This document shows, one piece after another, positions 3,612-64,000 of a stretch of DNA of 64,000 nucleotides (its first letter is position 1; every line of letters starts with the position of its first letter). The translations under genes were made by a program, and so were the position numbers. A model generated the notes under the pieces. That model had not been told where the DNA came from, ran no database searches, and saw only the letters and a program-made list of their open reading frames with translations. The stretch is from Nephrocerus scutellatus (taxonomy: Eukaryota > Arthropoda > Insecta > Diptera > Pipunculidae): assembly GCA_947095585.1 (NCBI GenBank), contig OX352766.1, forward strand, positions 22,930,939 through 22,994,938, given 5' to 3'.

Positions 3612-3713
3612 GCCGAGAGTACTTATGACTCTCTTAAGCTAGACAAATTTATTGTCATCAAATATCAGAGGCACGTATATGAATTAACCAGATTCCTTCT
3701 GTCCCTATCTACT
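3612..3713 (+). pseudogene. Diverged 28S rRNA fragment carrying the R2 and R1 target sites
   Basis: The order of conserved 28S words is intact: GAGTA, TATGACTCTCTTAAG (R2-site region, about 3630-3646), CAAAT, GTCATC, an ATGAATT region, AGATTCC, and CTGTCCCTATCTACT at 3699-3713 (the R1 site). Between these words it differs from the very conserved arthropod 28S at many positions, including the base after CTTAAG and a small deletion after ATGAAT. It is therefore a pseudogene and not a working rRNA gene. The 28S continuation after the R1 site (ATCTAGCGAAACC) is absent, because element C1 starts there. This is the anchor of the whole array. Confidence 0.85.
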
Positions 3714-4497
3714 CCTTACCACGGAATATTAACAAAGGGTCGTCGGTGCTTAGAGTATACTCAGTATGGGTAATGTCTAGTACTTGCGACCCGAAGTGGA
3801 GCACTGGTACTTAGAATCTCTTTATGAGCAAGTCTTCGTATTTAGTGGTTCATTTCATTCAACACAGGTCTGTGATGGGGACAGACGGGAATCTGTTATT
3901 CCAAAGGCCTAGGACTTGGGAAATCCTAGTGGCAAATGATGGGGTTCGCGGTTCCGGACGAATGTGCTGCCAGGGTCTGCTTTTGCAATCGCCCAGGCAC
4001 TCATTCTGAAAGAGCTGAGTCCCTTGATGCCTGACCTCACCAAGGTTGCGTTTGGTACCGCGGGAATTGTCCGTGCTCACAGACAACAAGGCCGGCCGCA
4101 AGGCTCGACCAGTCTGAGGACAATTGTGGTTGAGGACCCAGCTCGTTCTGGGGATGCAACGCGGGGGCTGTGGTTTACTACCCAAATGCGGGTAGAACAC
4201 TAGCATGGTAACATCAGCGTGGGGACTGATGTTACCAAAAATCTTTGGAACATCAGTATCCTTCCTGATGTTACCGGTGCGATGATGCGTTCTCTGTGGA
4301 GTTGCATAGATCAACCGGTTGTCGTGACACCAGAGATCGGCAGGGACTTAAGATAGGTCCTGCTCTAACCATTGAGTTAATACTGGCACATCAGTCTATG
4401 ATGGACGTTGATTGTCGTATTACTAATCCAAGTCCGAAGAGGACCGTGGGGTAAACCATTCCCTGGAGGCATCCACGTAAATCCAAATGACATTTCT
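3714..4497 (+). mobile_element. C1: non-coding R1-site unit with B-type 3' tail
   Basis: A 784-bp unit bounded by target-site copies, with no supported ORF. The last 340 bp or so (from about 4159) are homologous to the 3' UTR of R1-B elements: shared words include ACCCAAATGCGGGTAGA, GATCGGCAG, CGTTGATTG and CCGAAGAGGACCGTGGGG. The 5' part is unrelated to any coding element here and is rich in hairpins: one at about 3905-3925 (CCTAGGA ... TCCTAG) and one at 4207-4236 (GGTAACATCAG ... CTGATGTTACC). I infer a SIDE- or SINE-like parasite that uses the R1-B reverse transcriptase through its tail. Confidence 0.75.
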
Positions 4498-4510
4498 TGT
4501 CCCTATCTAC

Positions 4511-4675
4511 CTAACCGTGAGGTTCAAATTGCAGCATAATATCTAACCGTTATGTTGCAGGACCTAAACACGGAATAAAAAATAATGGATTCCAAAAAGA
4601 TACGAAATAAAGAGTATGCTTAATGGCGAAAGCTAGGAAAGCGCGGGGCTTAATCCCTAATCTCCACAGACCACG
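4511..4675 (+). mobile_element. S1: 165-bp short R1-site unit
   Basis: First of three S units repeated with a period of exactly 178 bp (165 bp plus 13 bp target). It begins with a short GTGAGGTTCAAATTGCAG segment and a hairpin (TGCAGCATAA pairing with TTATGTTGCA). It ends with a tail resembling the 3' end of family A (ATGCTTAAT, CGAAAG, AAGCG, GGGCTT). It codes for nothing. A few bases distinguish it from S2 and S3. Confidence 0.85.
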
Positions 4676-4688
4676 TGTCCCTATCTAC

Positions 4689-4853
4689 CGGTCCGTGAGG
4701 TTCAAATTGCAGCATAATATATAACCGTTATGTTGCAGGACCTAAACACGGAATAAAAAATAATGGATTCCAAAATGATAAGAAATAAGGAGTATGCTTA
4801 ATGGCGAAAGCTAGGCAAGCGCGGGGCTTAATCCCTAATCTCCACCGACCACG
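4689..4853 (+). mobile_element. S2: 165-bp short R1-site unit
   Basis: Identical over its 178-bp period (with target site) to S3, so this pair arose by a recent duplication or by insertion of identical RNAs. It has the same hairpin and A-type 3' tail as S1. Confidence 0.85.
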
Positions 4854-4866
4854 TGTCCCTATCTAC

Positions 4867-5031
4867 CGGTCCGTGAGGTTCAAATTGCAGCATAATATAT
4901 AACCGTTATGTTGCAGGACCTAAACACGGAATAAAAAATAATGGATTCCAAAATGATAAGAAATAAGGAGTATGCTTAATGGCGAAAGCTAGGCAAGCGC
5001 GGGGCTTAATCCCTAATCTCCACCGACCACG
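4867..5031 (+). mobile_element. S3: 165-bp short R1-site unit
   Basis: Identical to S2. Its downstream target-site copy (5032-5044) directly abuts the 5' end of the full-length element A1. Confidence 0.85.
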
Positions 5032-5156
5032 TGTCCCTATCTACCACTCGAGTGGTAACATTCAAAGCGAACAGACGTTCACAATTTTAGTGCGCATCAA
5101 AGTGTTCTGGACGATCATAATTATTGACAAAACACAGAGACAAAATCCACAGCCAA

Positions 5157-5406
5157 AGTAATTTTAATTACTAAAGACAAAAAAAGAAATTTTTATTGCT
5201 ATTGAACCGACAAATAAGCCAGCGACAAAACTCACAGCTGCAAAAGTAGTTTTTATTACTTTCGACTGTGCCAAGAGCAATTTTAATTGCTAACAAAAAG
5301 TAATTTTTATTACTAAAAAGAGATAAGACAAGACGAGGACAAAACAAACCAACGGACAAACGCAATTAGTAAAAAATTTTTAGACGCACAAGTAATTTTT
5401 ATTACC
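5157..5406 (+). repeat. A1 5' UTR array of six 16-nt hairpins
   Basis: Copies of AGYAAT-N4-ATTRCT lie at 5157-5172, 5185-5200, 5245-5260, 5276-5291, 5299-5314 and 5391-5406. The copy at 5276 (AGCAAT/ATTGCT) swaps a T-A pair for C-G relative to the others, and 5245 has a G-U pair. Only 5185 has a mismatch, and 5391 mismatches at the terminal base. This looks like a selected RNA stem and not a simple AT repeat. A (GT)n stretch follows (about 5421-5440) and a CAGGTA motif (5498-5503). Confidence 0.75.
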
Positions 5407-5766
5407 TGCGTACTCAAGTGTACGTGTGTGTGTGTGCGTGCGCGAGAAAATAACAACGCGTAAGATTTTTTCCGACCCGTGTGTGTAATACGCCGTGCAG
5501 GTAGAAAAACATTCAAACGTGTTTTTATTAAAAGCAATCGAGATATTCGAAAAAGCCGTCAAGCTGAAAAACTGTAAAACGCGACTTTCAGTAAAACGAG
5601 AGCAGGTAAAGAATTTTAAAACCGCCCAAGTGTTTTTAAGTGTTTTTTAAATGAAACCAAAAGCAAATATGCCGAAAAGTACTGGGAACAAAAATAAAAG
5701 GTCGTCGGTGAAAAATCCTTCTTCGAGCGACGAGGACAACAGCCCCCGGAAGAACCACCAAGGAAA

Positions 5767-7041
5767 ATGGTAACAAGGAGGATGTCAACGGTAAGTCAGA
5801 CTGAAAATATTTTTGGGATGGACAAAGGAACGTACGCAGACGCTGCTAAGATTAAACCAACAGACCACAATGACCAAATTTTTTCGGACAACAGCAGCCA
5901 AAATGACGACGAAAGCTGCCCCTCGGATGATGCAGGTGTCGGCTCAGACGGTACTGTTGTGAATGCCATAGAGGCAATTAAAACCGAACTGGAAAAAGAC
6001 GTAACGGACAATTTCCCTATTCTAAAGGCAACAATAACAGCAAAGACGGAAATAATTTATAGAAAATTAGTGGAACTTCTGTTGGTCATAACAGAAAATC
6101 AACAAAAAACATTAGACTTGGAAAGACAAAACTGGACACTAACCAACGCACTAATGAAGAAACCAAGGGGACAGACAACGGGACAGCAAAAAGGACATAC
6201 ACCCAGGAAAAACAACTCCGAATACAATATGAGTTTCCCAGAAATAACTAAAAAACGTAGGGATAACTCAATGAAAAGAACAAATTTTAAGGTCGTCGTA
6301 CAATCCACAAACAAAGATATACCAACAATCAAAGTGATAAGGGAAGCACTCAATATAAAAGAAGTGGGAGGACCACTCAAAAAACTCGACACCCTACGTA
6401 GTGGGGACGTCATGATCGGCTGCCACTCCCGAGAACAGTGGACAAAAGTCCAAACAACACTGACCAAAAAAGCCAAGGATACGCTAACAGTAAAACCTAT
6501 TAAGGCACCAAAGCCCATCATGCTACTCATGGGCATTGACGAGAACAGCGACCTAAGCGAGGAAAATATCGGAAAAGACCTTGCAACTTGCAACCCAGAC
6601 CTCGCGGAAAAAATCGGGGCTAGCAAATTCGCAGAAGGAATTAAATTTCTGGGAAAAAAGAAAAACTTTAACTCCAGAAAGGCCAACTGGAAAATAGAAG
6701 TAACCCCTGAGATCTACAAAGTCCTGATTAAAGAGGAAAAAATTATCGCAGACCTCACTTGGGTGTTTATAAAAGAATACACCGACCTTGCAAGATGCTA
6801 CCAGTGTCAGGGCTACGGGCACGTGGCCAAATACTGCAGAGCAACACAACAGGTATGCCCAAAATGCGCGGAGAAATCCGATACAAAGGACCACACCTGT
6901 AAAACGGCAACCCCGTGCTGCGTAAACTGCAAAGACATGAAACAAGTCAACACAAATCATTTCGCCTGGGACAACAACTGCCCAATTTTCAGGAGAAAGC
7001 TGAGACAAGCAGGAAATCTCATCGACTATGGCAATAATTAA
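5767..7041 (+). CDS. A1 ORF1: gag-like RNA-binding protein with zinc knuckles
   Basis: ORF1 proteins of R1-clade elements bind element RNA and form the particle used for retrotransposition. From the ATG at 5767, 424 residues are open. The first part is acidic and Ser-rich, the middle (about 175-330) is a conserved Lys-rich region found in all A elements (motif VGGP, then LLMGID), and three cysteine clusters lie at about 340-405 (CYQCQGYGHVAKYC, then VCPKC and CCVNC clusters). The natural start is probably the ATG at 5651; a C run at 5743-5747 shifts the frame relative to the homologous A3 leader. GTAAGT at 5791-5796 (Val-Ser) is the donor-like site. The stop overlaps the ORF2 start by 14 nt. 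Confidence 0.85.
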   Translation: MVTRRMSTVSQTENIFGMDKGTYADAAKIKPTDHNDQIFSDNSSQNDDESCPSDDAGVGSDGTVVNAIEAIKTELEKDVTDNFPILKATITAKTEIIYRKLVELLLVITENQQKTLDLERQNWTLTNALMKKPRGQTTGQQKGHTPRKNNSEYNMSFPEITKKRRDNSMKRTNFKVVVQSTNKDIPTIKVIREALNIKEVGGPLKKLDTLRSGDVMIGCHSREQWTKVQTTLTKKAKDTLTVKPIKAPKPIMLLMGIDENSDLSEENIGKDLATCNPDLAEKIGASKFAEGIKFLGKKKNFNSRKANWKIEVTPEIYKVLIKEEKIIADLTWVFIKEYTDLARCYQCQGYGHVAKYCRATQQVCPKCAEKSDTKDHTCKTATPCCVNCKDMKQVNTNHFAWDNNCPIFRRKLRQAGNLIDYGNN

Positions 7042-10000
7042 AATTGTCCAAATAAACGTAGGCAGAGGCAAAGAGGCCACAAACCTACTAGAGCAGTTCA
7101 TGGAAGAAAACAACATAGACATAGCCCTTATCCAAGAACCTTTCAGAAGAATCAAAGTAAATAAGAATTTCACCCTCTATCTGCCAAACAAAACGGCAAG
7201 AACACTGACGGCTAAGACGGCAATGGTGCTAAGGAATAGCACCATTACGTCAATATTGCTAACAGAATTTACTGACGACAATTCAGTAACTGTAAAAATT
7301 ACTAATACAGTCCCTAATATTGTACTAGTGTCACTGTATATGGAGCCGCTTGCCAGAATGAAAAGGCACTTTCTAAAAATGGAGAAGATTCTTCAAAAAT
7401 ACAAGAAGAACATCCTTATTGCTGGTGACATCAACTCCAAAAACACAATTTGGGGTGGAGATACCACGGATAGAAGGGGAGAAAGGTTCATGGACCTAAT
7501 AGCCAAAGAAGGCCTCAGAATAGAGAATAGTAGCACCAGCGAGCCTACATTCTATACACCACATGGACAAAGCTGGGTAGATATTACCTTGACAAAGGAA
7601 CTAAATGTCACTGGTTGGAAGGTCAAAACGACCGAAACACTGAGTGACCATAGGTACCTTTTGTATAACATAGACACTGAAAAGGAACCAATTATTATAG
7701 CTCCAAGATATCACTTGTCTAGAGCAAATTGGTCCCTGTTCAGGAATACCCTAAACAGCCATGAATGGGAAATAAGCGAAGAGAACGCAACGGCAAATGA
7801 TAGGGCTATTGAATTACAAGAATTGGCCACAACAGCCTGCAATGCAGCCATACCATTGAAACCAGGAGGTGCCTTTATATACTTCAACACGTGGTGGACA
7901 AGAGAGCTACAAAAACAAAGGACCAAAACAAAAAGGAAAAGAAAGGAAATGCAAAAAACCCTGCACTTACCAACAAGAGAACTCCTTAAAAATGAATACA
8001 AAACAATGAGAAATACACTCAAAAAGATGATAAGGAGTGCAAAACTTGAGTCACTAAACAGGATAATAGAGCAAAATAATGCAGACACAAATCCGTGGGG
8101 AATAGTTCACAAAATAGTCAACACAAAGGGCAGGACTAAGACATGCATAAAGTCCGTACAGAAGGCCGATGGAACGTGTACACAATCCCTTGCAGAATCC
8201 AGTATGGAACTAATGCAAAAATACTTCCCAAAGGACTCACATATGGACGATACAGAACAAAACAATGCAGACCGAAATGAAATTTGCATTTGGCAAGAGC
8301 AAGAACACATGGAAATTACTAATGAAGAAATCCAATCGGTAATTAAGACCCGGCCAAAGAGGAAAGCACCGGGCCCAGATAAATTCCCAACAGTTGCATT
8401 AAAACCACTCTCAGAAGTAATTCTGGGAAGATGGAAAGACGTAATGAACAACTGTTTGAGAGAAGGAAAATTCCCAGAAATATGGAAGACAGCCGAAATA
8501 GCGTGGCTGCCCAAAGCAGACTCAGATGACGTGAGACCAATCTGCCTGCTACCAACCATAGGAAAAATCTATGATAAGATCCTAGCGGATCGGCTGACAC
8601 ACCATCTGGAAACTAAGGGAATATTTTCACCAAACCAATTTGGGTTCAGGAAAACAAGGACTTCCATTCAAGCCATTGAAAAACTGCTAGGAGTATTCAG
8701 AACAAACAAATCCAAAAAATGGCATACACTCACCGTGGCAATGGATATCAAAAATGCTTTCAACTCAGCATGGTATCCAAGGTTAAAATTGCTCTTGTCA
8801 AAAACAGGATGCCCGGAAAAACTGGGGAAAACAATACTGGATTTCCTGCAAAACCGCAGAATAAAATCAAACGGCACGGAAATGTCAACAGAAAGAGGCG
8901 CCCCTCAGGGCTCATGCCTTGGCCCAGTCCTCTGGTTGATCATCATGGAGGACTGGTTCAACGAGATGCGAAACATCAGAACAGACGACAAAACATCATT
9001 GCATGTGCAAGCATTCGCTGACGACCAAGTGATTGCTATATCTGGAACCTCTGCAAAACGTATAGAACAAATATGGATGAAAACTTGGGAAAGTTGTATT
9101 AAGTGGGCGCAAAATAACAAACTCTGTTATGCACCACAGAAGACGACAGCAATGTTCATTGCTGCGAAAGTAACCATAAGGTCTCCACGCATTAAAATGG
9201 ATGAAATAATTGTCCCTATTGAGCACATGATAAAATACTTGGGAATCATCTTAGATGACAAGCTTACATGGATAGAACATGCGAAATACGTCAGAGGAAA
9301 GGTAGCGGCTAAAGCACATAAGCTATATATAGTAACCGGCAAAACATGGGGAGCAAACAAGAAGATACTCCGCAGGATATACGATGGAGTCGTAAAGCCC
9401 CGGCTATTATATGGAGCAGAGATATGGGGTATAAACTCAAACAATACATACTACAAAAGACATCTCGAAGCGGCACAAAGGCCATTCCTCATAGCCCTGA
9501 GTAAAGCATACAGAACGACCGCAAATAAATCGATTCAAATTCTGGCACATCAACCACCACTATATCTTGAAGCCAAGGAGAGGCACGAGACATATGAGGC
9601 TAGAAAGACTGGCAAATTCGTAGAGAAACCGCTACCAAATACGAGGCCACATCCGGCAAAAATAAAAGCTAGAACATATAATATTCTCGACGAAAAAGTA
9701 GATAACTTAGGACCAAACGATACGTGGATATTCACGGATGCATCTGCAACAACAAACGCAATAGGAATTGGCATAGTAATGCAAGAAGCAAATGCCACAC
9801 GTATGCGGAAATGAACAGCCCAAAGAACACCAGAGATACACAGGGCCGAACTTACAGGAATCCTAAAAGGCATAGAATGCTTAGACCCAGACATAAGAGG
9901 GAAAAACCTAAACATCGTATCTGACTCGCGAACGGCACTCGGCAAGATCTGTCAAACAAACCTCGACGATCCAGCGACCGTTAAAATCGCTAATTGGCTA

Positions 10001-10570
10001 AACCACTTCGAGGGAAACAACAACCTCGTTATACTGCATTGGACAAGAGGTCACGAGACGGAAGTGGAACAAATGGAAGCAGCAGATCGCATGGCAAAAC
10101 AAGCGGCAACACAGCCAAACTATTACGAGCAGATAGTCATTCCAAGACCGCGAAAAGAAGCAAACTATGAAGCGCACGAAAACATGCAAAGAAATTGGAC
10201 AGAAGACTGGAGCAACTCACAACTCGGACGTGCTCTACACGACACAATAAATCAGCCGACAAAAAATTGCACCTACTTAGGACCCAAAGCAGTCTGCTTG
10301 TTAACAGGACATGGCCCTTTCAACAGCTACTTCCGTAGATTTAAAATCAAATGGACTCCGGACGTGTGCCCCTGCCAAATGGATATTGACAGCATTCAGC
10401 ACATACTGAATGATTGTTCACTTCCACGGAGGGAGGAAGCAAGAAGGGAGTTTAAGGGTAAATACGGTCAACAAGATATTGTATTGAACATAGACGACGA
10501 CTCTACTAAAGAATACCTCAGTGACCTAAATACGCTGGCTGAAAGGGCTGTGTACGAATATCCGGACTAA
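7028..10570 (+). pseudogene. A1 ORF2: endonuclease-RT-RNase H polyprotein, one nonsense codon
   Basis: The frame is 1180 codons long with a single in-frame TGA at 9812-9814, where related copies have Trp (after residue 928). AP-like endonuclease: IQEP (Glu37), GDIN (134-137), SDH (206-208). Reverse transcriptase: APGPDKF (447-453), RPICLLP (503-509), MDIKNAFNS (Asp573), GAPQGSCLGP (624-633), FADD (663-666). RNase H: FTDAS (902-906), then beyond the stop VSDS and a WTRGH motif. A terminal CxCx8Hx4C motif is at about 10366-10416. Start chosen because ATGGCAATAATTAA is conserved in all A elements and overlaps the ORF1 stop. Function is known for the clade: nicking of 28S DNA and target-primed reverse transcription. 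Confidence 0.9.
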
Positions 10571-10744
10571 TATTGCGCCCACAAAAAACAATAGGAAAGC
10601 TAGGGCAATCCCCGCTAATTATTGGAGTGTGGTTTGGCGGTTGGGTTCTCTTGCCTGTGGATCCGCTGTATCGTTAAGAAGGATGAATATTTGCTTAATA
10701 CCGAAAGATGGGAAAGCGGAGGGCTTGCCCTCAATAATATCAAC
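10571..10744 (+). other. A1 3' UTR with A-type tail
   Basis: Conserved among A1, A2, A3, A4, A5 and also B3: CCCCGCTAATTNTTGGAGTG, GGTTGGGTTCTCTTGCCTG, then GCTTAATACCGAAAG, GGGAAAGCGGAGGGCTTGCC and a short A/T run before the target site. S and D units carry a version of the last 60 bases or so. In R1-like elements the 3' UTR is what the reverse transcriptase recognises, so this is the likely recognition signal. Confidence 0.75.
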
Positions 10745-10757
10745 TGTCCCTATCTAC

Positions 10758-10916
10758 CCGGGTCGTGGGGTCCGACTGCAGCATAATATTCTCAGTTATG
10801 TTGCAGGACTTAAAGCGATAGATTAAGAAATTAAGAAAGCAAATAAAAAAGGAGTAAGCTTAAAACCGCAAGGTGGGAAAGCGCGGGGCTCAATCCCCAA
10901 CTCTACCAAGACTCGA
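10758..10916 (+). mobile_element. S4: diverged short R1-site unit (159 bp)
   Basis: It shares with S1-S3 the hairpin around TGCAGCATAAT/TTATGTTGCA and the tail with GCTTAAAACCG, AAAGCGCGGGGCT. It is 6 bp shorter and differs at many positions, so it is an older or separate lineage. It ends at a variant target site (TGTCCCTATTTAC). Confidence 0.8.
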
Positions 10917-11273
10917 TGTCCCTATTTACCCAGTCTTAGACAAACTCTTGCAACGAGCAGACGTTCTACGGAAGAATTTTAAAAAAAGACAAATCAGTAA
11001 TTTTTATTACTCTGTACATTCAAGTGAAATACTTTATTTTTATTACTTCACAGAAAAGTGCATCAGTGCTTAATATTTTTATTATTAATTACTCAACGCC
11101 GGACAAAAAAAAAAAAAAAAAAAAATTCGACAAAGGGTTTTTTTTTTATTACCCTACGGTTTTATTTGCCTACCTGGAAACGCACAAGTGTTCATACGTG
11201 TTTGTGTGTGTGTGTGTGAAAAATCCGTCGGCATTCAAAATCCACAATACTTCTACAAAACTAGTGCCTGAAT

Positions 11274-12734
11274 ATGGGAAAAAATTCAAGAAAGAGGATG
11301 AAAGGAAACAGAAACTCAGACGAGGATACATCCAGCACAACAAAAAAGACAAAACAGGTAAAAATAGAACTAACGAATTCGGACAACAGCGATACAGAGG
11401 GAAAAAATCAAGCACCGGCTGCCTCAGGTAAGTCAAAAAATAAACCATATGAAAATCTTGTAGATAGCGACAGCTCAGACGAATCTGAAACAATGGAAAC
11501 AATGGACACCGCGACCAAAACTCTACCAAGGACAGACAACGGCACCTTAAGTGAAAATTAGGGGCAAACCCGCGGCAAACGCAAAAGTCCAAAAGACTCT
11601 GCTGATAAAATCCAAGGCGCAATTGAAAACATATTGCGCCTCACGGAAAAATATCAGAAGATAAAAAATGAAATCATAAAGGAGGCATCCAACATAAGGA
11701 ACAAATGTATTGACCTCCTCGTGGAAATCACCGACAGGGACACAAAAATCATTGATTTGACGAAGCAGACATTAACAAATTTCACGGAAAACAGAAATAC
11801 ACCCGCAAACCGCCCGACACCGACAAACGCCAACAAAAACCTCCATAGTAACAGTAGACAATCTAGGGACAGATCACAGAAATAAACTTCATACGCAATG
11901 ATGCTTCAGTCAACCAACGCAGAGGAAAACCCGAGAGAACTCCTTCGAGAAATCTCTAAAGGTGAAAAACTAGAGGACATAGGAGGACCCTTCAAAACTA
12001 CTAAACAGACCAAAAGCGGTACCCTGATGATAAAACCAACGAGCAAAATTAACCTCGACAAACTACAAAAATTTGTAGAGATAAAGGGCAAAGAAAAGCT
12101 CACCGCGAAGCCACTCAAGTTCCCAAACCCAACAATAGTTTTGATGGGTGTGGACAAATACTCGGACCTATCCGAAGAACGCATTGGGGAACAAATAGCG
12201 GAATACAACCCCAACCTGGCAAGGATAATAGGCAAAGAAAAAATGGCAAAGGAAATCAAATTCCTGACAAAAAGAGAAAACAGAAACCCAATGACACAAA
12301 CCTGGAAAGTGGAAGTTTCACCAGACATATACAAGGTCTTGATTAAAGAAGAAAAAATTATCACAGACGTCACCTTCGTGCACATCAGGGAAAGCATCGA
12401 GGTAGCAAGATGCTTTAAATGCCAAGGATACGGCCACGTGGCAAAATATTGTAGAGCAGTAAAAGAGACCTGCCCTAAATGTGCAGAAAAAACAGACACG
12501 AAGGAACACACTTGCAAAAGCGCAACCCCATGCTGTGCAAACTGCAAGGAATTGGGACTGCAAAACACAGCCCATTACGCCTGGGATAATAAGTGTCCAG
12601 CTTACCAAAGGAAACTTAGGCAAGCAGGTTCACTCGTAAACTATGGTAATAATAAAAACCATACAAGTAAACGTAGGCAGAGGCAAAGAAGCCACCAACC
12701 TATTGGAAAAAGTTATGGAAGAAAGGGGCATTGA
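11274..12734 (+). pseudogene. A2 ORF1, interrupted by two stops
   Basis: One frame runs from the ATG at 11274, broken only by TAG at 11559-11561 and TAA near 11883. The N-terminus is Ser/Asp/Glu-rich and unlike A1. The site CAG|GTAAGT at 11428-11433 is read here as Gly-Lys, not Val-Ser. The middle matches other A elements (KLEDIGGP, VLMGVD), and three cysteine clusters follow (CFKCQGYGHVAKYC and later). The usual ORF1 stop in the ATGGTAATAATTAA overlap is changed to AAA, so the frame reads about 30 codons into ORF2. Confidence 0.8.
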
Positions 12735-21641: not shown

Positions 21642-21672
<31 letters not shown>

Positions 21673-21676
<4 letters not shown>

Positions 21677-53575: not shown

Positions 53576-53588
53576 TGTCCCTATCTAC

Positions 53589-54242
53589 CTACTCCGCCGA
53601 AGCCGGTCCTAAGCCCGAGTTGAAAAAGGAGGAAGGGTAGAGGAACAGAACCTCAATAAAAAACCATGACTTATGTGCCCCGTATGATTTAACGGAGGGG
53701 GCCTAGTCTGGCTTAAGATGGCTGGTATTTGTGGATTTGCAAAATCCACATCACCGGGTGATTGTGTTTTGTGGAATTTTCACAATCACCAATGCTATCA
53801 GAGAAGACAAAAAGAATGCAATTTATCCCCGGCGGTTAGGGGTATAGAAAACACCGCGGTACAGAACGCCTGGGGTAAGAGTCCTCTAAAGTTCCATTTC
53901 GTGTTGGGGTCCAGCAGCATCTTTGTTTAACCTTTTGTTAGATGCAGGACTCCTTCACGGTAGAATAAAAGAAAGGACCACTGGTACTTAAAGATGCTTA
54001 AAGTCGGGCAAACTCTTCGTATTTAAGTGGCCAAGTCTAACATATGTTAAGGGCCCAGGATAGCTTGCTCACGCTCGACCAGTCTGAGGACAATTGTGGT
54101 TGAGGACCCAGCTCGTTCTGGGGATGCAACGCGGTGGTTGTGGTTTACTTTCGAAAGAATGGACCACTATTTAGTCGGTATTGAGTATGCTTCATGGCTC
54201 AAGCTAGGCAAGCGCGGGGCTCACGCTCCAACTCAAGATCAC
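53589..54242 (+). mobile_element. D1: non-coding R1-site unit with A-type tail
   Basis: 654 bp. It starts TACTCCGCCGAAGCCGGTCC, shared with D2 only. Stem-loops: GTGGATTTGCAAAATCCAC (53731-53749) and GATTGTGT...CACAATC (53760-53788). The tail (about 54190-54242) reads GCTAGGCAAGCGCGGGGCT, as in the S units. It shares GGACAATTGTGGTTGAGGAC and neighbours with C1, so C and D have common modules but different tails. Confidence 0.75.
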
Positions 54243-54337
54243 TGTCCCTATCTACCCACTCGTGTTTGAACAGCAGAAGCGAAAGGTTGCTTTGCGCATT
54301 GTGCACAAAATAAAAAAGACAAACTAGAAAAAGTAAC

Positions 54338-56524
54338 CCTAAACGTACTAAATGGTGGACTACCAAGTTAGGTGCGAAGCGTGCGTGGCTAAGGCGTCTC
54401 AGGAAAGCCCACCAGAGGGCCAGAGCTGGTGATAGTCCAAGCGTCGATCAATTCAGGTTGGCCTATCCGCGCGGCACACGTGAGTACCGTAATATGATCC
54501 TCAAAGCCAAAGAGAAGGATTGGAGGCGTTTTGTTGGTAACAAAAATAACGATCCATGGGGTGAAATTTACCGCATATGCAGGGGAAAGCGTAGGTCGGA
54601 AGTTTGTGGCATTCGTGTCAACAACCGTGTGTGCCATACCTGGTCAGATAGTGTGAGAACACTCCTAGAGGAGTTCTTTCCTGGTGCCCGTCCGCCGCTG
54701 TTCGGTCCCTTGAATCAGTTTGGATATGGAGATATTCCATCTCTAGATCCATCTGAGTTGTGGGAGTGCATGGCGTCGGTAAGGTCCCGAAAGTCTCCAG
54801 GGATGGATGGGATGACTGGCGAGATGTGTAAAAGCATCTGGCGAGCTATCCCAGACCATATCATGATGATCTTCCTCGACAATTGCTACTTCCCAGCCGC
54901 TTGGAAACACGCAAAGGTTGTAGTGCTGCTAAAGTCACCAGACAAGGTGCGCAGTAAACCTCGTTCCTACCGTGGCATTAGTTTTTTACCAGTACTTGGA
55001 AAAGTGCTGGAGAGGATAATGGTACGACGGCTTGAGGATGTTGCGACCAGTTTGATGTCTGACAGGCAATACGGCTTTAAAACTGGGAAAAGCACTGAGG
55101 ATACATGGCTGTATGTAACAGACAGTGTGTATTGTATTGTGTGTTCTTGCCATCTTTGTGGATTTCAAGGGCGCTTTCGACTACCTAAGTTGGGATTGCG
55201 TGGTTGAAAACTGATAGAAGTTGGCTGTCGCGAAGTTCCTCTATGCTTGAGCTACTTTAGTGACAGGCTAGCTTCCTGTGTTGGCACTTCTGAATGCGTC
55301 AGCAAGTGTGTCACTCGTGGTTTTCCTCGGGGATCCATTTGTGGTGCATTTATATGGAACCTTATGATGGACACCCTCTTAGGGCAGCTAGCGGTGCTTT
55401 GCAAATGTTGTGCCTACGCGGATGATTTGATCATCCTTGTTGAAGGCAACTCGCGACTTGAGCTGGAGACAAGGAGTGCAGAAGTCATGTCGATTGTTCA
55501 CGACTGGGATGCTAGAGTCGGTGTTGACGTCTCATTGGACAAAACTGTGATGATGTTGCTGAAAGGCAAACTATCGCGCAGTCGTCACCCAGTGGTTAGA
55601 CTCAACGGGTCTAGAATCAAGTATGTTAACCAGGTAAGATACCTCGGTATTAACATGAGCGAACGCATGAACTTCCTTGTGCACCTTACTGAGCTCAGGA
55701 AGCGGCTGCTTAATCTCGTAGGTCCAATTCGTTGTGTACTTCGCACTGAATGGGGTCTTAACAGGCGGGCAGTTCGCATCATATATGGTGGCCTATTTGT
55801 TGCTTGTGCAACTTATGGAGCACCGGTATGGTATGAATCTGTCATGCTTGAAAGAGGCAAAGCAAGGATTAACTCTTGCCAACGCGTGGCTCTGATCGCA
55901 TGCTTGCCAGTCTGTCGCACAGTCTCTACGGAGGCTATGCAGGTCTTAATGGGTGTTCCACCTCTTGTTCTGGAAGTAATCCGAAGAAGCCTTGTCTTCA
56001 AGATCAAGAAGAACCGACCGTTCCTGCAGAGCGACTGGCTGGCATCTAGTGAGTTGGAAAATAGAGGCCTTGCCCAGTGCAAGGAACTCCTTGAAGAAGC
56101 CATGATATCTAGATGGCAATCTAGATGGTCTGAATCCGAAAAAGGCAGAGTTACTTATGAATTTGTAAAGGACGTCCAGTACGTCAGAGCAAATCCGGAC
56201 TTTGCTTTTAGCCTTAGAATGGGTTTCCTGCTCACTGGGCACGGCAGCTTTGATGCATTCTTACATCAAAGAGGCGCCAGTGAGACAGCAAGCTGCATCT
56301 GCGGTTTCCCTAGAGAGGACTGGTTGCATTTCCTATGCGACTGTCCACTATACTCTGACATAAGAGATCTAAGTGCGATGGGCATAAGCTTGCTTAATAA
56401 CAGATACGTCTTCGAATCTGTATTGAGCCGCAGTGACCATATTGAGTCCATGAAGGCTTTTGCCAAATACGCGTTTCAACGGCGAACAAGGAGGCAACCT
56501 GCTATGGTTGCTTCACCTGACTGA
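54338..56524 (+). pseudogene. B4 ORF2: RT and C-terminal region of family B
   Basis: The frame starts in the linker after the endonuclease (KRTKWW), is open to about 55145, frameshifts near 55140-55210 and continues to 56524. RT motifs: SPGMDGM, RGISFLPVLGK, a frameshifted FVDFKGAFD, the GxPxGSICG motif with Arg where B1 has Gln (GFPRGSICG), and YADD at about 55417-55428. The terminal zinc motif CICGFPREDWLHFLCDC is complete, and the last 45 residues, missing in B1, are present. Confidence 0.85.
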
Positions 56525-56876
56525 TTAAAACAGTCAGTTTAAATCCGTGCATATTGCGATGTATGGAGGGCCACCAGTCCCGAGTCGTAAGGAACTCTAC
56601 TGCAGTAGTTAACTACTTGTTAGCTACGAAAATCTGACCAGAGATTCGTCTGGTACCACGGGAGCTGGGGAGCCCACGGAAGGATTTCTTCCGTCCCCAG
56701 CTATGAGGTAGGCCCCCTTGTGGGAGCATCGTGGTGGCTGTGGTTTGACACCCAAATGCGGGTAGAGTATTTACTCAATGTGAGTTCTTACTCGGCGGGG
56801 AGTTGCGTTCTTCCAACTGGGTGCCGTGACCCATAGATCGGCAGAGATTTAGATAGGTCTCGCTCCAATCAGTGAG
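55507..56876 (+). repeat. Source half of a perfect 1370-bp duplication (partner 62631-64000)
   Basis: Every base I compared is identical at an offset of 7124 bp, up to the right edge of the window. The left limit is sharp: position 55506 is G and 62630 is A. It contains the RT thumb, C-terminus and most of the B-type 3' UTR. Identity means a very recent event, or an assembly artefact. Confidence 0.85.
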
Positions 56877-57044
56877 AAGTTGAAGCCTTACACTTCAATG
56901 ATACTGATACATTTATAATAGTAATATTGGGAATGGGCGTTGATTGACGTCACAAAATCAATCCGTGTCCGAAGAGGACCGTGAAATTATACCCTCTGTT
57001 GGTGGTGTTCACGGAAATCTTAATTAATATATGTCCCTATCTAC

Positions 57045-58064
57045 CAACTCCGCCGAAGCCGGTCCTAAGCCCGAGTTGAAAAAGGAGGAAGGGTAGAGGA
57101 ACAGAACCTCAATAAAAAACTATGACTTATGTGCCCCCCCCCCCCCGGATGATTTAACGGAAGGGGCCTAGTCAGGCTTAAGAAGACTGGTGTTTGTGGA
57201 TTTGCGAGATCCACATCACCGGGTGATTGTGTATTTGGATTCCTCACAATCACCAATGCTATCAGAAACATTTTAAAAAAGAAGATAATCCCCGGCGGTT
57301 AGGGGTATAGAAAACACCGCGGTACGGAACGCCTGAAGTAAGAGTCCTCTAAAGTTCCATTTTGTGTTAGGGTCCAGCAGCATCTTTGTTTAACCTTTTG
57401 TTAGATGCAGGACTCTTCCACGGTAGATTAAAAGAAAGGGCCACTGGTACTTAGAGATGCTTACAGTCGGGCAAACTCTTCGTATTTAAGTGGCCAAGTC
57501 TAACATATGTGAAGGGCCCAGGATAGCTTGCTATCCTTGGTGGGCCTAGGATGGCTTGCTGTCCTAGTGGCAAATGATAGGGTTCGAAGTTCCGGAAGGA
57601 TGTGCTGCCAGGGTTTTGCCTTGTCAAATGCCCAGGCACTCATACCTAAAGGAATGGGTGATTCTTGATGCCAGATCTGACCAAGGTTGCGTTTGGAAAC
57701 TCGGGATAGCTTGCTATCCTGATGGCAAGTGAGATGGCATAGGTCACTGACGGATGTGCTGCTAGGGTTTTGCCTTGACAAATGCCCATGCACTCATACC
57801 TGAAATTTCCGACGCCATTGATGTCAGACCCCACCAAGGTCGAATTGGTACCGCGGGAATTGTCCGTGCCCACAGACAAAAAGGCCGGCCGTAAGGCTCG
57901 ACCAGTCTGAGGACAATTGTGGTTGAGGACCCAGCTCGTTCTGGGGATGCAACGCGGGGGATGTGGTTTACTTTCGAAAGAATGGACCACTATTTAGTCG
58001 GTATTGAGTATGCTTCATGGCTCAAGCTAGGCAAGCGTGGGGCTCACGCTCCAACTCACGATCA
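57045..58064 (+). mobile_element. D2: non-coding R1-site unit with repeated hairpin modules
   Basis: 1020 bp, starting and ending like D1, with a C14 or longer run near 57137. It contains three related stem-loops: GGATAGCTTGCTATCC (57521-57536), CTAGGATGGCTTGCTGTCCTAG (57546-57567, written here as one stem-loop with a GGCTTGCT core) and GGGATAGCTTGCTATCCT (57703-57720). The second and third are each followed by a copy of about 140 bp (TGTGCTGC...AGGGTTTTGCC, CACTCATACCT), also present once in C1. No credible ORF. Confidence 0.75.
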
Positions 58065-58232
58065 TGTCCCTATCTACCCAGTGTTAGACAAACTCTTGCG
58101 ACGAGCAGACGTGCAACGGAAGTATTTTCGAGGACAAAACAGCGATTTTTATTGCTACATTCGCAAACAGTAATTTTTATTACTTCAACAAAGTGAAAAC
58201 CCAACAAAACAAAACACACAGAACACAATCAC

Positions 58233-58269
<37 letters not shown>

Positions 58270-58478
58270 GCGCAGGTATAAAATCCCTACGCGAACAAAC
58301 GCATTAGTGCGCGACCCAAAAATTAACACGTGCCGAATTGTGAAGAAATACGCTACCTGCTTATTACGTGAAATAAAGTGATAGTTAGCCGTCAGCATTT
58401 TGTTAGCAATTCTTGGAATTAATATAGAAAACAATTATAAAAGTGATCACTTCAGTGAAAAGAGAAATAAATCGCCAA

Positions 58479-59777
58479 ATGATGGAAAGCAGCGACAGTG
58501 AGAAAATTGAGGCAAACGCGGGGAAACCCAAACCACTCAGCAAACGTGTTGCCAAAAAGAGACAACAAAAGAGGACAGCATGCCTGGACAAACATCGGGA
58601 AATCTCTCCTTCAAAGAAAAAAAAAAGGAAATCACGACGCATCTGGTGAATCGATGGACGAAGAGCCAGAGGCAAAAGAAAAAGCAGGTAAGAAAGTTAA
58701 ATTTCCTACAAATAATGAATCCATCATATATATATCCGACCATGAACTTACTGACGGCGAAGTTTGCAACAATAAGGGGCAAACAGAAAAAAATATGATT
58801 GTAAAACAAAAAACCGAAAAAATCACCAATGCATTGGAAAACATAGAGGTATCTTTTGACAAATACCCGAATACGACGACCATTAAGAAAACATTCTTAG
58901 AAAATCAGGGGGAAATCCTGCGAACGTGTCTCAGCTTGGTCGCGACAATTAGCGATAAGGAGACAGAAATTCGCGAACTGTGGAAAAAAATCCACGACAT
59001 AGAAAAAAAGACAGGGGAACAGTAGAGACAAAAATAACCGGACAAATTATTGGCACAAAAAGGGCAATACCTCCAGGGTACAACGCTAATTTTCCACCAA
59101 TAGGTCGAAAATCCAGAGATCGTTCAAACTCTAGGACGAGACATGCGATGCTAACACCAAAAAAACCATTAGGGAAGTCATCAAAGGGGCAAACCTGGCA
59201 CCATTCAACGCATAGAAAAACCATACAAAATGGTAAATGCATAATTGAGTCTGAATCAAAAAAAGAACAGGAAAAACTCAAAGAAGCATTGGACAAAGCA
59301 AAAGAGCAACTGACAACAAGGCCATTCAAGACACCAAATCCCGTACTCACTATCTTGGGAGTTGACTCAGAGGCCGCGCTTAACGAAACGACCATCGGCA
59401 GCGATCTCACACAATACAATCCCAGAATTGCGGAAAAAATCGGGACAGAAACCATGAAAAAAGGGATCAATTTCCTAACAAAAAGGAAATGCCGGAACCT
59501 CCAGAAAGAAAACTGGAAGATAGAGGTAACCCCAGAGATATATAAAGTCCTCATCAAAGAAGAACGAGTCGTGATCGATTGTACATATGCTTACCTTAAG
59601 GAATGCATCGAGTTGGCAAGGTGCTACAAATGCCAGAGTTACGGGCATGTAGCAAAATACTGCAAGTCCACAAAGGAAATTTGTCCAAAATGTGCTGAAA
59701 AGACCGACAACAAAGATCACATTTGCGGAAACAGAACCATATGCTGTATAAACTGCAAGGATATATTAAGAAATTAA
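58479..59777 (+). pseudogene. A6 ORF1, frameshifted
   Basis: ATG at 58479 or 58482 (MMESSDSEKIEANAGKPK); an A run near 58615-58625 shifts the frame. GCAG|GTAAGA at 58688-58693 is read as Gly-Lys. The body (DKYPNTTTIKKTF, LVATISDKETEI) runs to 59025, then continues in the frame 58980-59777 with ILGVDSEAALNE, CYKCQSYGHVAKYC, ICPKC and CCINC. The last part is deleted near 59765, and the usual 3' end (HLINYG) lies in another frame before the ORF2 ATG. Confidence 0.8.
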
Positions 59778-59801
59778 AACAGACCGGACATCTCATCAAC
59801 T

Positions 59802-61398
59802 ATGGTAAAAATTAAAACCATACAAGTAAACATAGGCAGAGGCAAAGAAGCCACAAACCTATTGGAAAGAACAATGGAGGAAAGGAATGTCGATGTGGCC
59901 CTAATTCAAGAACCATATAGAAGAATGAAAGTTAGTAAAACCTTCACTCTTTATATGCACCATGGAACAGGCGCTCTAAAAGCCAAGACGGCGATCGTTG
60001 TAAGAAACAGCACCATATCGGCATTGCTTCTTCCAGAATTTACCGACGACAACTTGGTAACGATTAAACTTACCAATACAATACCGAATATTATTGTAAC
60101 TTCGGTATACATGGAGCCCCTCTCTCGGATGTAAAGACACTTTATAAAGATAAAGAGCATCATCCAGAAATATAGAAAAAATATCTTAATAGCTGGAGAT
60201 ATTAACTCTAAAAACCCACTATGGGGCGGCGAGACCATAGACCGAAGAGGAGAACGTTTAATGGACCTCATAGCCAAAGAAGGCCTAAACATAGAAAATA
60301 ATTGCGACAGCGAACCCACATTCTTTACCAGCCATGGAGAAAGCTGGATAGATATAACCCTTACCAAGCAACTAAGCATCGAAGGATGGAAAGTCGAGAC
60401 TACCGAAACACTAAGCGACCATAGGTACATGGAGAGAAACCAGGAAAAGACGAAGATGGATGCAAGAATCCACGGACAACATCAGAAGAGCAATTCTCAA
60501 TAATGAGTACAAAAGCCAAAGAAATAAGCTCAAAAAGATGATAAAAGAAGCCAAATTTCAGTCCTTGAACAGAGTCTTAGAAGAAAACAATTCAGAAATG
60601 GACCCGTGGGGAGTTGCCCACAAGATACTAAACGCAAAAGGCAGGACACAAACACAAATAAAGTCCATCCAGAAAGCCGACGGAACATGGACACAAACCA
60701 TTGAGGAAACAACCACTGAATTAATGTGAAAATACTTTCCAAAAGACTCGTGTGCCGACGACTCTGCACAGAACAATGCAGATAGGCACGAAACTTGCAT
60801 ATGGCAAACGCAAGAAGAGTGCGACATAACCAAGGATGAAATTACAGCGGTAATTAGAACTCGTAGAAAGAGAAAAGCCGCAGGCCACCGATAAATTCCC
60901 GACAATAGCACTAAAGCCACTCTCGGAAGAAATTCTGAGGAATTGGCTAGAAGTGTTGAACCTCTGCCTAAGAGAAGGCAAGTTCCCGGAGATTTGGAAG
61001 GTAGCTGAGATAGCTTGGCTACCAAAACCAGATACAGACGAAGTCAGACCAATCTGTCTTCTTCCTACAATCGGAAAAATCTTTGATAAAATCCTTGCAG
61101 ACCGCCTGGCTCACCACCAGGAGTCGAATCGGAAGCTCTCGCCAAATCAATATGGCTTTAGAAGAACGAGATCATCCGCACAAGCAACCGAAAAACTTAT
61201 GGAAGTAATAAAGGAAAATAAGGCTTGTAAGCGCCACACACTGACTGTGACGTTGGACATTAAAAATGCGTTCAACTCAGCTTGGTATCCCAGGCTGAAA
61301 CTCCTCTTGGCGAACACTGGATGCCCTGAAAAATTAGGAAAAACCATAATAGATTTCCTACAGCAACGTAGGATAAAATCGAATGGTGCAGAGTTAAG
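59802..61398 (+). pseudogene. A6 ORF2: endonuclease and part of RT
   Basis: ATGGTAAAAATTAA sets the start. TAA at 60132-60134 replaces Lys. After SDHRY (about 60426) a deletion of roughly 90 codons leads to the linker, then a stop at 60727-60729, a frameshift near 60890 and an open RT part (60953-61398) with RPICLLP, LDIKNAFNS and the following helix. The GAPQG and FADD motifs, RNase H and C-terminus are absent. Confidence 0.8.
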
Positions 61399-61425
61399 AA
61401 CATACTATCAGCTGTCCCTATCTAC

Positions 61426-62630
61426 GCAGTTACATTGTGACACTCGAGGTGAACAGACGTGTAGAAATCTAGTGCGCATCAATATTGAGCTACAAAGTGC
61501 TAAACAATTATTGACAAAACACAGAGACAAAACCCACAACCAAAAAGCAATTTTTATTGCTACACGACAAAAAATATAGACAACAAAATTCAATATGTGG
61601 GCATAATTATTGATGACAGATTAACATGGATCCAACAAGCAAAGTTCGTTAGAGGAAAAGCATCAGCCAAAGCGTACAGGCTATTCATCGTCGCAGGAAA
61701 AACTTGGGGAACCAGTAGGGAAATTCTGAAAACGATTTACGAAGAAGCCATCAGACCAATGCTCACATACGGGGCAGAAATCTGGGGCAAAAATCCCAAA
61801 AACAGATACCTGCAAAAGCCCCTGGAAGCAGCTCAAAGGCCATTTCTTATGGCTTTGAGCAAAGCTTACAGAACCACGGCAAACAAGTCCATCCAAATAC
61901 TGTCGAACTAAGCGCTACTTCATCTAGAGACAAGACAGAAATTTGAGACAGAAGAGGACAGGAAAACTGGAGAAAAATGGAGATTGCGACAGGAGTAGGC
62001 GCCGTCATTCAAGATGCATATACCACCTCAATAAGGAAATGGACTGCCCCAAGAATACCGGAGTCCCACAGGGCAGGAATTACAGGGGTCAGGAAAGCAC
62101 TGGAATGCCTAAGCCCCAACAAAATGGGGAAAACGATAAACATCGTGTCGGACTACCGAGTGGCACTAGGGAAAATATGCACACAAAGCAGATGTAGCAC
62201 AGATGTACATAGCAGACCGCATGGCTAAACAGGCGGCAACGTTGCCAAACACATATGAGCGGATAAGCATAGCCAGGCCGCTTAAGGCAGCAAATCAAGA
62301 GGCGCGTAAAAGGATGAACAACAACAGGATACAGGAGTGGAATAATTCATCCCTCGGACGGGCGGTTCATGACGCTATCGGGAAGCCCACAGGGAACTGC
62401 ACCAACCTGGGAAAAAAGGCAGTATACCTAATAACGGGTCACGGACCTTTTATCAGCTACTTCCGTCGTTTTAGGATTAGAGATGTCCCAAACGTCTGCC
62501 CCTGCCAAACGGATGTTGACAGCATTCAACATATTTTGAATGACTGCACACTTCCACAGAGGATAGAAGCACGGAGGGAATTTAAAAATGAATATAGAGA
62601 AGAGCACATCGTAATAAAAATAGACGGATA
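61426..62630 (+). mobile_element. A7: internally deleted R1-A element, fused to B5
   Basis: About 155 bp of 5' UTR of the A1 type (CACTCGAGGTGAACAGACG) with one hairpin at 61546-61561 (AGCAAT/ATTGCT), joined at about 61580 to the RT thumb. The RNase H is also shortened. There is no A-type 3' UTR: at 62630/62631 the sequence changes to R1-B RT. Confidence 0.8.
61580..62630 (+). pseudogene. A7 ORF2 remains: RT thumb, RNase H part, C-terminus
   Basis: It begins at DNKIQYVGIIIDD, downstream of FADD, and runs to TAA near 61911. A deletion at about 61975 loses the FTDAS motif. The piece 61977-62180 holds the glycine-rich strand and VSDYRVAL; a second deletion near 62178 brings it to ADRMAKQAA and then the terminal CPCQTDVDSIQHILNDC motif (about 62500-62550). 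It ends at residues KIDG, a few dozen codons short of the normal end. Confidence 0.8.
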
Positions 62631-64000
62631 GGATGCTAGAGTCGGTGTTGACGTCTCATTGGACAAAACTGTGATGATGTTGCTGAAAGGCAAACTATCG
62701 CGCAGTCGTCACCCAGTGGTTAGACTCAACGGGTCTAGAATCAAGTATGTTAACCAGGTAAGATACCTCGGTATTAACATGAGCGAACGCATGAACTTCC
62801 TTGTGCACCTTACTGAGCTCAGGAAGCGGCTGCTTAATCTCGTAGGTCCAATTCGTTGTGTACTTCGCACTGAATGGGGTCTTAACAGGCGGGCAGTTCG
62901 CATCATATATGGTGGCCTATTTGTTGCTTGTGCAACTTATGGAGCACCGGTATGGTATGAATCTGTCATGCTTGAAAGAGGCAAAGCAAGGATTAACTCT
63001 TGCCAACGCGTGGCTCTGATCGCATGCTTGCCAGTCTGTCGCACAGTCTCTACGGAGGCTATGCAGGTCTTAATGGGTGTTCCACCTCTTGTTCTGGAAG
63101 TAATCCGAAGAAGCCTTGTCTTCAAGATCAAGAAGAACCGACCGTTCCTGCAGAGCGACTGGCTGGCATCTAGTGAGTTGGAAAATAGAGGCCTTGCCCA
63201 GTGCAAGGAACTCCTTGAAGAAGCCATGATATCTAGATGGCAATCTAGATGGTCTGAATCCGAAAAAGGCAGAGTTACTTATGAATTTGTAAAGGACGTC
63301 CAGTACGTCAGAGCAAATCCGGACTTTGCTTTTAGCCTTAGAATGGGTTTCCTGCTCACTGGGCACGGCAGCTTTGATGCATTCTTACATCAAAGAGGCG
63401 CCAGTGAGACAGCAAGCTGCATCTGCGGTTTCCCTAGAGAGGACTGGTTGCATTTCCTATGCGACTGTCCACTATACTCTGACATAAGAGATCTAAGTGC
63501 GATGGGCATAAGCTTGCTTAATAACAGATACGTCTTCGAATCTGTATTGAGCCGCAGTGACCATATTGAGTCCATGAAGGCTTTTGCCAAATACGCGTTT
63601 CAACGGCGAACAAGGAGGCAACCTGCTATGGTTGCTTCACCTGACTGATTAAAACAGTCAGTTTAAATCCGTGCATATTGCGATGTATGGAGGGCCACCA
63701 GTCCCGAGTCGTAAGGAACTCTACTGCAGTAGTTAACTACTTGTTAGCTACGAAAATCTGACCAGAGATTCGTCTGGTACCACGGGAGCTGGGGAGCCCA
63801 CGGAAGGATTTCTTCCGTCCCCAGCTATGAGGTAGGCCCCCTTGTGGGAGCATCGTGGTGGCTGTGGTTTGACACCCAAATGCGGGTAGAGTATTTACTC
63901 AATGTGAGTTCTTACTCGGCGGGGAGTTGCGTTCTTCCAACTGGGTGCCGTGACCCATAGATCGGCAGAGATTTAGATAGGTCTCGCTCCAATCAGTGAG
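62631..64000 (+). mobile_element. B5: R1-B 3' half, exact copy of B4, runs off the window
   Basis: It starts abruptly inside the RT (GGATGCTAGAGTCGG) right after the A7 fragment, with no target site between. It contains the ORF2 end (62632-63648) and B-type 3' UTR to the edge. The match to 55507-56876 is exact, so the joint was made by recombination or unequal exchange between array members, not by retrotransposition to a 28S site. Confidence 0.85.
62632..63648 (+). pseudogene. B5 ORF2 fragment: RT thumb and C-terminal zinc region
   Basis: An open frame of 338 codons plus the stop, identical to the B4 C-terminus, from DARVGVDVSLDKT to the stop. YADD lies upstream of the breakpoint and is absent. 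It holds the thumb (RYLGINMSERMNF), the linker and the CxCx8Hx4C motif. It has no start codon of its own. Confidence 0.85.

Follow-up and report, generated by a model that had tools for sequence, protein, structure and literature searches.

The window analysed here, a 64,000-nt stretch of contig OX352766.1 of the fly Nephrocerus scutellatus, contains a mixed tandem array of R1-site non-long terminal repeat (non-LTR) retroelements together with their parasites. The array, its junctions, its tails, its open reading frames (ORFs) and its sequence motifs can be read directly from the letters. Taken as a whole, they are probably best explained by insertions driven by two lineages, A and B, at a short remnant of the 28S ribosomal RNA (rRNA) gene left at the end of each unit, combined with the sharing of 3′ tails and two ways of making 5′ ends. 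The colony belongs to a known kind, of which it is a rich instance: tandem R1 elements and non-autonomous SIDEs among them have already been described in Drosophila (PMC2718515, PMC3414825). The first-pass annotation, made from the sequence alone, had considered a mixed colony with several non-coding classes not to be a standard description, which in the light of these Drosophila cases was overstated. As far as our searches reached, what is new is the size and variety of the array, a twister-like head that uses the target, heads with conserved Inr-DPE spacing (initiator and downstream promoter element, respectively) and the distribution of two tails over many bodies.

The units are delimited by a 13-mer, TGTCCCTATCTAC, of which the whole window contains 18 exact copies, all of them on the + strand. 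With up to one mismatch there were 21 copies on the + strand and one on the − strand (11472, away from any unit end), and allowing two mismatches added one further − strand copy (40635). Among five Markov-simulated control sequences, each scanned on one strand, no copy with up to one mismatch and one copy with up to two were found. The 21 + strand sites, three of which carry one mismatch (10917, 37965 and 46281), split positions 3700-64000 into 20 complete units of 172-13,179 nt (U01 to U20) and a last one, U21, that is truncated where the window stops; on its right side the array ends beyond the window. All units lie head to tail in one orientation on the + strand, as the first-pass annotation had described. 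Its further statement that they are cleanly bounded by single copies of the 13-mer holds as to the bounding, with the correction that 3 of the 21 junctions carry a mismatch. In the ten S, C and D units (classes introduced below) the 13-mer flanks both ends, forming a target duplication of R1 length, with one mismatch in the right-hand copy of U06, U12 and U14.

At its left end the array adjoins a decayed 28S rRNA fragment (3590..3699, + strand), located directly upstream of the R1 site. The corresponding match to the Rfam model LSU_rRNA_eukarya (3590-3712, 55.9 bits, E = 3.8e-13) spans the entire stretch searched, which began at 3590, so that the 28S match reaches upstream at least to that position; the 28S piece proposed at first pass is therefore present and extends beyond the start at 3612 then given. 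The first 13-mer (J1, 3700..3712, + strand) follows directly after the fragment, in register with the 28S alignment, at what we take to be the R1 position of 28S. J1 agrees with the 28S consensus in 12 of 13 columns, the exception falling on a weakly conserved consensus letter, and in the fragment upstream of it 77 of 112 columns equal the consensus and 35 are changed. The 14th base of the 28S target duplication, directly after the 13-mer, is T in 28S; at the 21 junctions this base is T in 7, C in 13 and G in one. To the left of the 28S piece, at 1256-1930, lies a broken ORF1 fragment of family A, so R1 debris continues on that side of the array.

Unit classes were assigned from an all-against-all blast table and inspection of the unit ends, and all the kinds of unit that had been proposed were recovered, namely two reverse transcriptase (RT) lineages, ORF1-only elements and S, C and D units (the latter three non-coding). 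Family B comprises six units with an RT-encoding ORF2. U05 (5032..10744) is near-intact, with an open ORF1 of 447 aa and an ORF2 that encodes endonuclease (EN), RT and RNase H and contains one stop. U07 (10917..16394) has one ORF2 frameshift and one ORF1 stop, U08 (16395..21370), U13 (37965..45306) and U15 (46281..51752) are decayed, and U20 (58065..61412) lacks its 3′ half and tail; U07, U13 and U15 are those that start with a one-mismatch 13-mer. RNase H was found in U05, U07 and U13, and the endonuclease scan of this family covered U05. Self matches in U13 reveal tandem-like internal repeats (38410-39040). Family A is represented by U09 (21371..34549; ORF1 29387-30970, EN 30949-31692, RT 32434-33918), by U18 (54243..57031), which has an R1-type head and no ORF1 or EN, and by the right half of U21 (61413..64000), where a B head and pieces of B ORF2 are joined to a family A 3′ half. 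An A-type ORF1 alone is found in U11 (35350..37786), with a zinc-knuckle match just under the Pfam cut-off, and, in broken form, in U16 (51753..53575). The S units are U02, U03 and U04 (together 4498..5031, 178 nt each), the diverged U06 (10745..10916) and U12 (37787..37964), their length being 172-178 nt with the 13-mer included. Class C consists of U01 (3713..4497), U10 (34550..35349) and U14 (45307..46280), the last with an internal duplication of 127 nt (45626-45950, 99% identical), and class D of U17 (53576..54242) and U19 (57032..58064).

The RTs of the two families share 25% identity over 363 aa. The endonucleases of B and of A (U09) match the R1Bm and TRAS1 structures, and among the named RT relatives two for A are called R1DM or R1 and two for B are called R1DM; the named protein matches are mostly from arthropods, with some from rotifers. 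By target site, APE endonuclease and RT, as judged from these similarities, A and B are R1-type lineages, which together with the Rfam match bears out the earlier 28S/R1-site reading. Like R1Bm and TRAS1 of the R1 clade, they appear to carry an APE-type endonuclease followed by an RT; in comparison with these two elements, the family B ORF2 additionally contains RNase H. No relatives were found in viral, prokaryote or plasmid sequence collections, a result of little weight, since these collections cover viruses and prokaryotes.

Two 3′ tails recur over these bodies. Tail A ends 6 of the 20 complete units (U01, U09, U10, U11, U14 and U18), tail B or its S/D variant ends 13 (U02-U08, U12, U13, U15-U17 and U19), and U20 has no recognisable tail, neither A nor B. 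Tail B contains a conserved predicted stem-loop: in an alignment of 12 sequences, which leaves out U04 as identical to U03, 2 of the 11 pairs are changed on both sides in some sequences and 4 of the 11 are broken in one or two. Bodies and tails are reshuffled relative to each other. For example, U11 and U16 have ORF1 in common and end in tails A and B, respectively. Similarly, a body segment of about 220 nt is common to classes C and D (U01 258-480 versus U19 718-941, 87% identity), with tail A at the end of the former and tail B at the end of the latter. These combinations fit template jumping between RNAs, or DNA recombination, together with mobilisation by a tail-recognising enzyme. As in SIDEs, the non-autonomous units carry the 3′ tail of an autonomous partner, and the first-pass view that the non-coding classes share tails with such partners stands for S, C and D, with the tailless U20 set apart. 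PMC3414825 argues that R1 recognises its 3′ untranslated region (UTR). From the tail sharing we infer that the enzymes of lineages A and B would each be specific for the 3′ tail of their own lineage and copy in trans any RNA ending in it. Two tails over many bodies make tail-dependent R1 mobilisation testable within one locus.

The 5′ ends of the R1-type units resemble promoters. Each head was scored against the Inr and DPE consensus motifs at up to 11 candidate starts per unit, and the highest score was kept. The start chosen in this way is an A in all 11 R1-type heads, separated from the 13-mer by one to five bases. The DPE-like motif RGWYV at +28 is matched at 5/5 positions in 10 of the 11 heads and at 4/5 in U15, and the Inr-like score is 4-6 of 6, with the full 6 in three heads; the background for an Inr score of at least 4 with a DPE of 5/5 is 0.14% per position. 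When the three head types were compared over 51 columns, +1, +3, +14 and +32 were always alike and the other 47 ranged from 0 to 0.89. Positions +28 and +30 vary between head types yet, in the ten heads that score 5/5, fit the DPE consensus, and the invariant +14 column lies outside both motifs. An Inr-like start and a DPE-like motif at +28 also occur in other self-promoting non-LTR elements. On this basis the R1-type heads may have Inr/DPE promoter activity and would start their own transcription from the Inr-like A with the DPE-like motif at +28. Two observations weigh against this reading: the heads are homologous within types, so that the 11 are not independent, and the D heads reach a DPE of 5/5 with an Inr of only 3 of 6. 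A 2012 paper stated that direct evidence for a promoter encoded by R1 itself was lacking (PMC3414825); the conserved Inr-DPE spacing across three head types makes this question testable.

The two D units open with a putative ribozyme. The Rfam model twister-P1 (RF03160) matches the 5′ end of U19 (57041..57096, + strand; 37.7 bits, E = 1.2e-4 on the whole window) and that of U17 (53585..53640, + strand; 31.6 bits, E = 0.0073 on the whole window and 1e-4 on 901 bases), and both matches begin inside the 13-mer. Predicted folds of 58 nt of both heads show the twister layout, in which the P1 strands are UCUAC from the remnant and GUAGA from the unit (six pairs in U19, seven in U17); in the Rfam match of U19 the 5′ strand of P1 is the CTAC of the 28S remnant. 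Stems P1, P2 and P4 appear both in the alignments of the D heads and in the 58-nt folds; the alignments also retain the loop GC and most of L4, lack the optional P3 and have A for one U of L2. Relative to the consensus, U for C in L4 and A for G in L1 would pair with each other in T1, as a compensatory C-G to U-A change, and the letters of T2 are kept (both contacts as read off the Rfam alignment). T1 consists of three Watson-Crick pairs between L4 and L1 (PMC5408937). The 14-base core CGGTCCNAAGCCCG, with up to two mismatches, occurs in the whole window only at U17 and U19. Between these two units the head differs at 1 of 56 positions and the body at 40 of 493 (p = 0.05). The predicted cut falls one base past the 13-mer, at C|A in U19 and, in U17, at C|U; the 28S base T in that place would give U|A, the site found in most twisters.

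We predict from sequence and fold that the D head is a twister-P1-like ribozyme, with the 28S remnant supplying part of its P1 stem. D units would be cut from read-through transcripts by the twister, P1 being completed by the UCUAC end of the remnant. U16 and U18 lie directly upstream of U17 and U19. In its full form this proposal would make the D units a new kind of R1 parasite: the target would complete P1, each correct insertion, and no other, would rebuild a working ribozyme, the RNAs would be released from the Inr/DPE transcripts of upstream neighbours, and the 13-mer would serve as target, ribozyme strand and spacer at once. We regard this fuller proposal as evenly poised between right and wrong. 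Several results count against the twister reading. Both scores are below the RF03160 gathering score (67.2 bits), and shuffled sequences fold as well as the 58-nt head in 5 of 200 cases for U19 and in 19 of 200 for U17. A longer stretch of U17 keeps the twister layout and a longer one of U19 folds otherwise, the outermost P4 pair is non-standard in the alignments, and for the core CGGTCCNAAGCCCG with two mismatches 0.46 chance occurrences are expected. The conserved adenine 3′ of the cut is kept in U19 and replaced by U in U17, where the ribozyme is probably weak or dead. Finally, the D class has no more than two copies, whose heads agree at 55 of 56 positions. The resemblance might be a chance or dead one, and the D units ordinary deleted R1 derivatives with another 5′ end, an alternative to which the low scores, the altered adenine of U17, the two similar copies, the longer U19 fold and the DPE-like motif at +28 in both D heads all lend weight. 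It has to account, however, for two matches with whole-window E-values of 1.2e-4 and 0.0073 that both start within the 13-mer, for the retention of P1, P2, the loop GC and most of L4, and for the compensating L4 and L1 changes in T1; we consider it somewhat unlikely.

The D units invite comparison with several known systems. According to Eickbush and Eickbush 2012, R2/R1 hybrid SIDEs are interspersed among tandem R1s in D. willistoni (PMC3414825). Like these, the D units are short and non-autonomous, combine a putative ribozyme head with an R1 3′ end and sit at the R1 site among tandem R1s; the SIDE head, however, is an R2 ribozyme similar to that of hepatitis delta virus (HDV-like), with self-cutting shown, whereas the D head is a predicted twister with a target-derived P1 strand. 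The predicted P1, P2, L2 GC, L4 and T1 are laid out as in type P1 twisters, from which the D heads differ by C instead of U before the cut, one non-standard P4 pair and the target-derived 5′ strand of P1 (PMC6154101, PMC5408937). Human LINE-1 has a twister-sister-like ribozyme (PMC11620745), likewise a small self-cleaving ribozyme in a non-LTR element; by its description, to which the likeness is confined, it differs in class, element and place. In a search of open-licence literature by title and start of abstract, no report of a twister ribozyme in retrotransposons or 28S-site parasites was found, and the letters of the 13-mer retrieved no paper on rDNA elements by title. If the prediction is true, the twister head would be a second ribozyme class making the 5′ ends of 28S-site parasites. 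A 5′ module that is also an HDV-like ribozyme is known from L1Tc of Trypanosoma cruzi, where it is called Pr77. This module, like the heads described here, is reported to contain a downstream core promoter element (PMC4748587). In contrast to L1Tc, where host and ribozyme class are others, the promoter-like and ribozyme-like features here are mostly found in separate units.

The S heads are predicted to form an RNA rod of another kind, which in U02 has three stacked stems (4515..4573, + strand). Across four distinct heads (U02, U03, U12 and U06) pairing is kept in 97.6% of the 84 cells of this 21-pair rod, and five pairs are changed on both sides, a result equalled in 0 of 500 shuffles; the structure was taken from the fold of the same sequences, which makes this control generous, and the covariation rests on one sequence, by alignment U06. 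The fold of the U02 head itself has a z of −6.2, and 0 of 200 shuffles were as good. The S head is thus predicted to be a covarying rod, which could act in stability, protein binding or processing. A structure common to the C heads was dropped: shuffles were as good in 10 of 200 cases for U10, 50 of 200 for U14 and 1 of 200 for U01, and the U10 and U14 folds are not clearly better than shuffles, that of U01 being so. HDV-like, hammerhead and other known ribozymes were rejected for the S and C heads, with no credible Rfam match, which sets these heads apart from those of the SIDEs (PMC3414825); in scans of sub-regions all matches were to small nucleolar RNA, microRNA or long non-coding RNA models with E above 3. 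An HDV-like head of the R2 type was absent at E 0.5 from the whole window, at E 1 from 3300-3800 and at E 10 from three sub-regions. We also rejected the 13-mer as a P1 strand in all units, as the S and C folds that include CUAC pair it otherwise, and a tRNA-like B box in the S units was dropped after inspection by eye.

How the array grew can be judged from its 5′ junctions, from exact copies and from decay. The filler between the 13-mer and the element start differs within classes, that between TAC and the S core, for example, reading CTAA, CGGT or TTAC. In U02, U03 and U12 the four bases after the 13-mer (4511-4514, 4689-4692 and 37800-37803) nearly all differ, the whole units being 95% identical. 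The sole exact tandem copy is U03/U04, identical at 178 of 178 positions including the junction. Because fillers differ within classes and only this one exact tandem copy exists, target-primed insertion is favoured. Each earlier insertion leaves 13-14 bp of 28S, and at this remnant target-primed reverse transcription would add new copies; the array would feed itself in this way although the adjoining 28S has decayed. The first-pass annotation had named both insertion into the 13-bp remnant and exchange at it; the former is the better supported, and exchange is needed only for U03/U04 and perhaps for U18/U21. U03/U04 is a tandem duplication, so that exchange has occurred at least once, and to this extent speaks against growth by insertion. 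The last 1370 nt of U21 before the window end have an identical counterpart in U18 and border sharply on unrelated sequence within U21; this identity may reflect a recent insertion inside the array, a recent 5′-truncated copy in U21, conversion or an assembly error.

As a measure of decay we counted stops and frame changes in ORF2 by hand, against the uninterrupted relative P0005 (1172 aa) for B and against P0141 for the A stretches. The B units U05, U07, U08, U13 and U15 have 1, 1, 7, 6 and 8 disruptions, respectively, and the partial B ORF2s of U20 and U21 have 5 over 613 aa and 4 over 421 aa. In family A, U09 has 4 over 849 aa, U18 has 1 over 645 aa (a stop) and the A half of U21 has no stop in 338 codons. 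Per-residue decay of the seven B stretches climbs from left to right (Spearman 0.88, one-sided p = 0.0075), and the trend persists without U21 (0.81, p = 0.036) and when the A stretches of U09 and U18 are added (0.73, p = 0.015). Two points tell against growth at the left end: the little decayed U18 and the A half of U21 sit at the right end, and counting the latter as well reduces the correlation to 0.26 (p = 0.24). Since the A half of U21 abolishes the trend, polar growth at the left is weakly supported, and a strict left-to-right age order was rejected as a firm claim. From the order of decay we infer that insertion at the left-hand remnant is suggested, and most of the growth may have taken place at the left end, alongside some events in the interior of the array or by exchange. 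If U05 and U07 are recent, they inserted beside decayed 28S, so the remnant itself seems to be enough of a target. This suggests that the 13-bp remnant suffices; a 28S sequence may also lie at the right end, beyond the window.

Unequal exchange or block amplification, with few insertions, might instead account for most of the array. In its favour are U03/U04, the 1370 identical nt of U18/U21 and the succession of S then B, which recurs three times at class level (U04-U05, U06-U07 and U12-U13) when block order is compared by eye on the class list. The B units of these three pairs are, however, only 69-71% identical, same-class units outside the two exact cases differ by about 2-32%, S and R1 heads carry differing 5′ filler, and exchange is unable to create new classes, all of which renders this explanation improbable. 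Insertion of units beside intact 28S at one end, with a 13-mer that alone is insufficient and an array later moved or cut from the rDNA, has more in its favour: the right end is outside the window, it is on the right that U18 and U21 have their little decayed A stretches, and PMC2718515 places many, perhaps all, tandem R1s of Drosophila within rDNA loci. We nevertheless hold it to be unlikely. The least decayed B units, U05 and U07 with one ORF2 disruption each, adjoin the left 28S fragment, in which 35 of 112 columns are changed, and had the array grown beside 28S at its right end, the youngest units would be expected there. Moreover, the non-28S R1 insertions of Drosophila for which both junctions are known went into targets with 4-9 bp of identity (PMC2718515). 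The unit order could also be an artefact, if the assembly had linked R1 copies of many different rDNA units through their 13-mers. Repeats of rDNA assemble badly, and exact identity is seen in U03/U04 and in the U18/U21 stretch; most units are diverged, however, and a common junction of 13 bp would be too short to misjoin long reads, so we regard an artefact as very improbable.

Growth by insertion at the remnant has close counterparts in Drosophila. According to Stage and Eickbush 2009 (PMC2718515), tandem R1s separated by a 14-bp target duplication are present in seven species, new copies were inferred to insert into the target duplication that precedes an earlier copy at its 5′ end, 5′ junctions vary as in target-primed insertion, and R1A copies stand upstream of R1B in D. 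ananassae arrays. The present array shares with these the R1 site, the target duplication between copies, two lineages per array (as in D. ananassae) and the variable 5′ junction. It differs in extent, since Drosophila arrays average at the highest two to three copies per inserted unit and here 20 units of several classes are found, in the decayed 28S fragment alongside, and in the 14th base T, which follows only 7 of 21 13-mers.

The twister heads, promoter-like heads, ORF2 decay pattern and tail swaps go beyond the first-pass annotation, as do the further elements that U09 holds. One is an antisense piece of R2 3′ UTR in its 5′ part (21701-21815, − strand; Rfam RF00524, E = 6.8e-7), after which, reading along the − strand, come a stretch of A and a CA repeat; it is an R2 3′ end outside its 28S site. 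The other is a nested Ty3-like LTR element (about 23123-28164, + strand). No LTR pair was found in U09, where the only family of direct repeats of at least 40 nt is local (22870-23127). An inverted repeat of 41 nt with 95% complementarity is present at 28159-28199 and 28472-28512. The nested element encodes protease, RT/RNase H, integrase zinc-binding and envelope-like Baculo_F domains in separate ORFs, with capsid and integrase-core matches below the Pfam cut-off.

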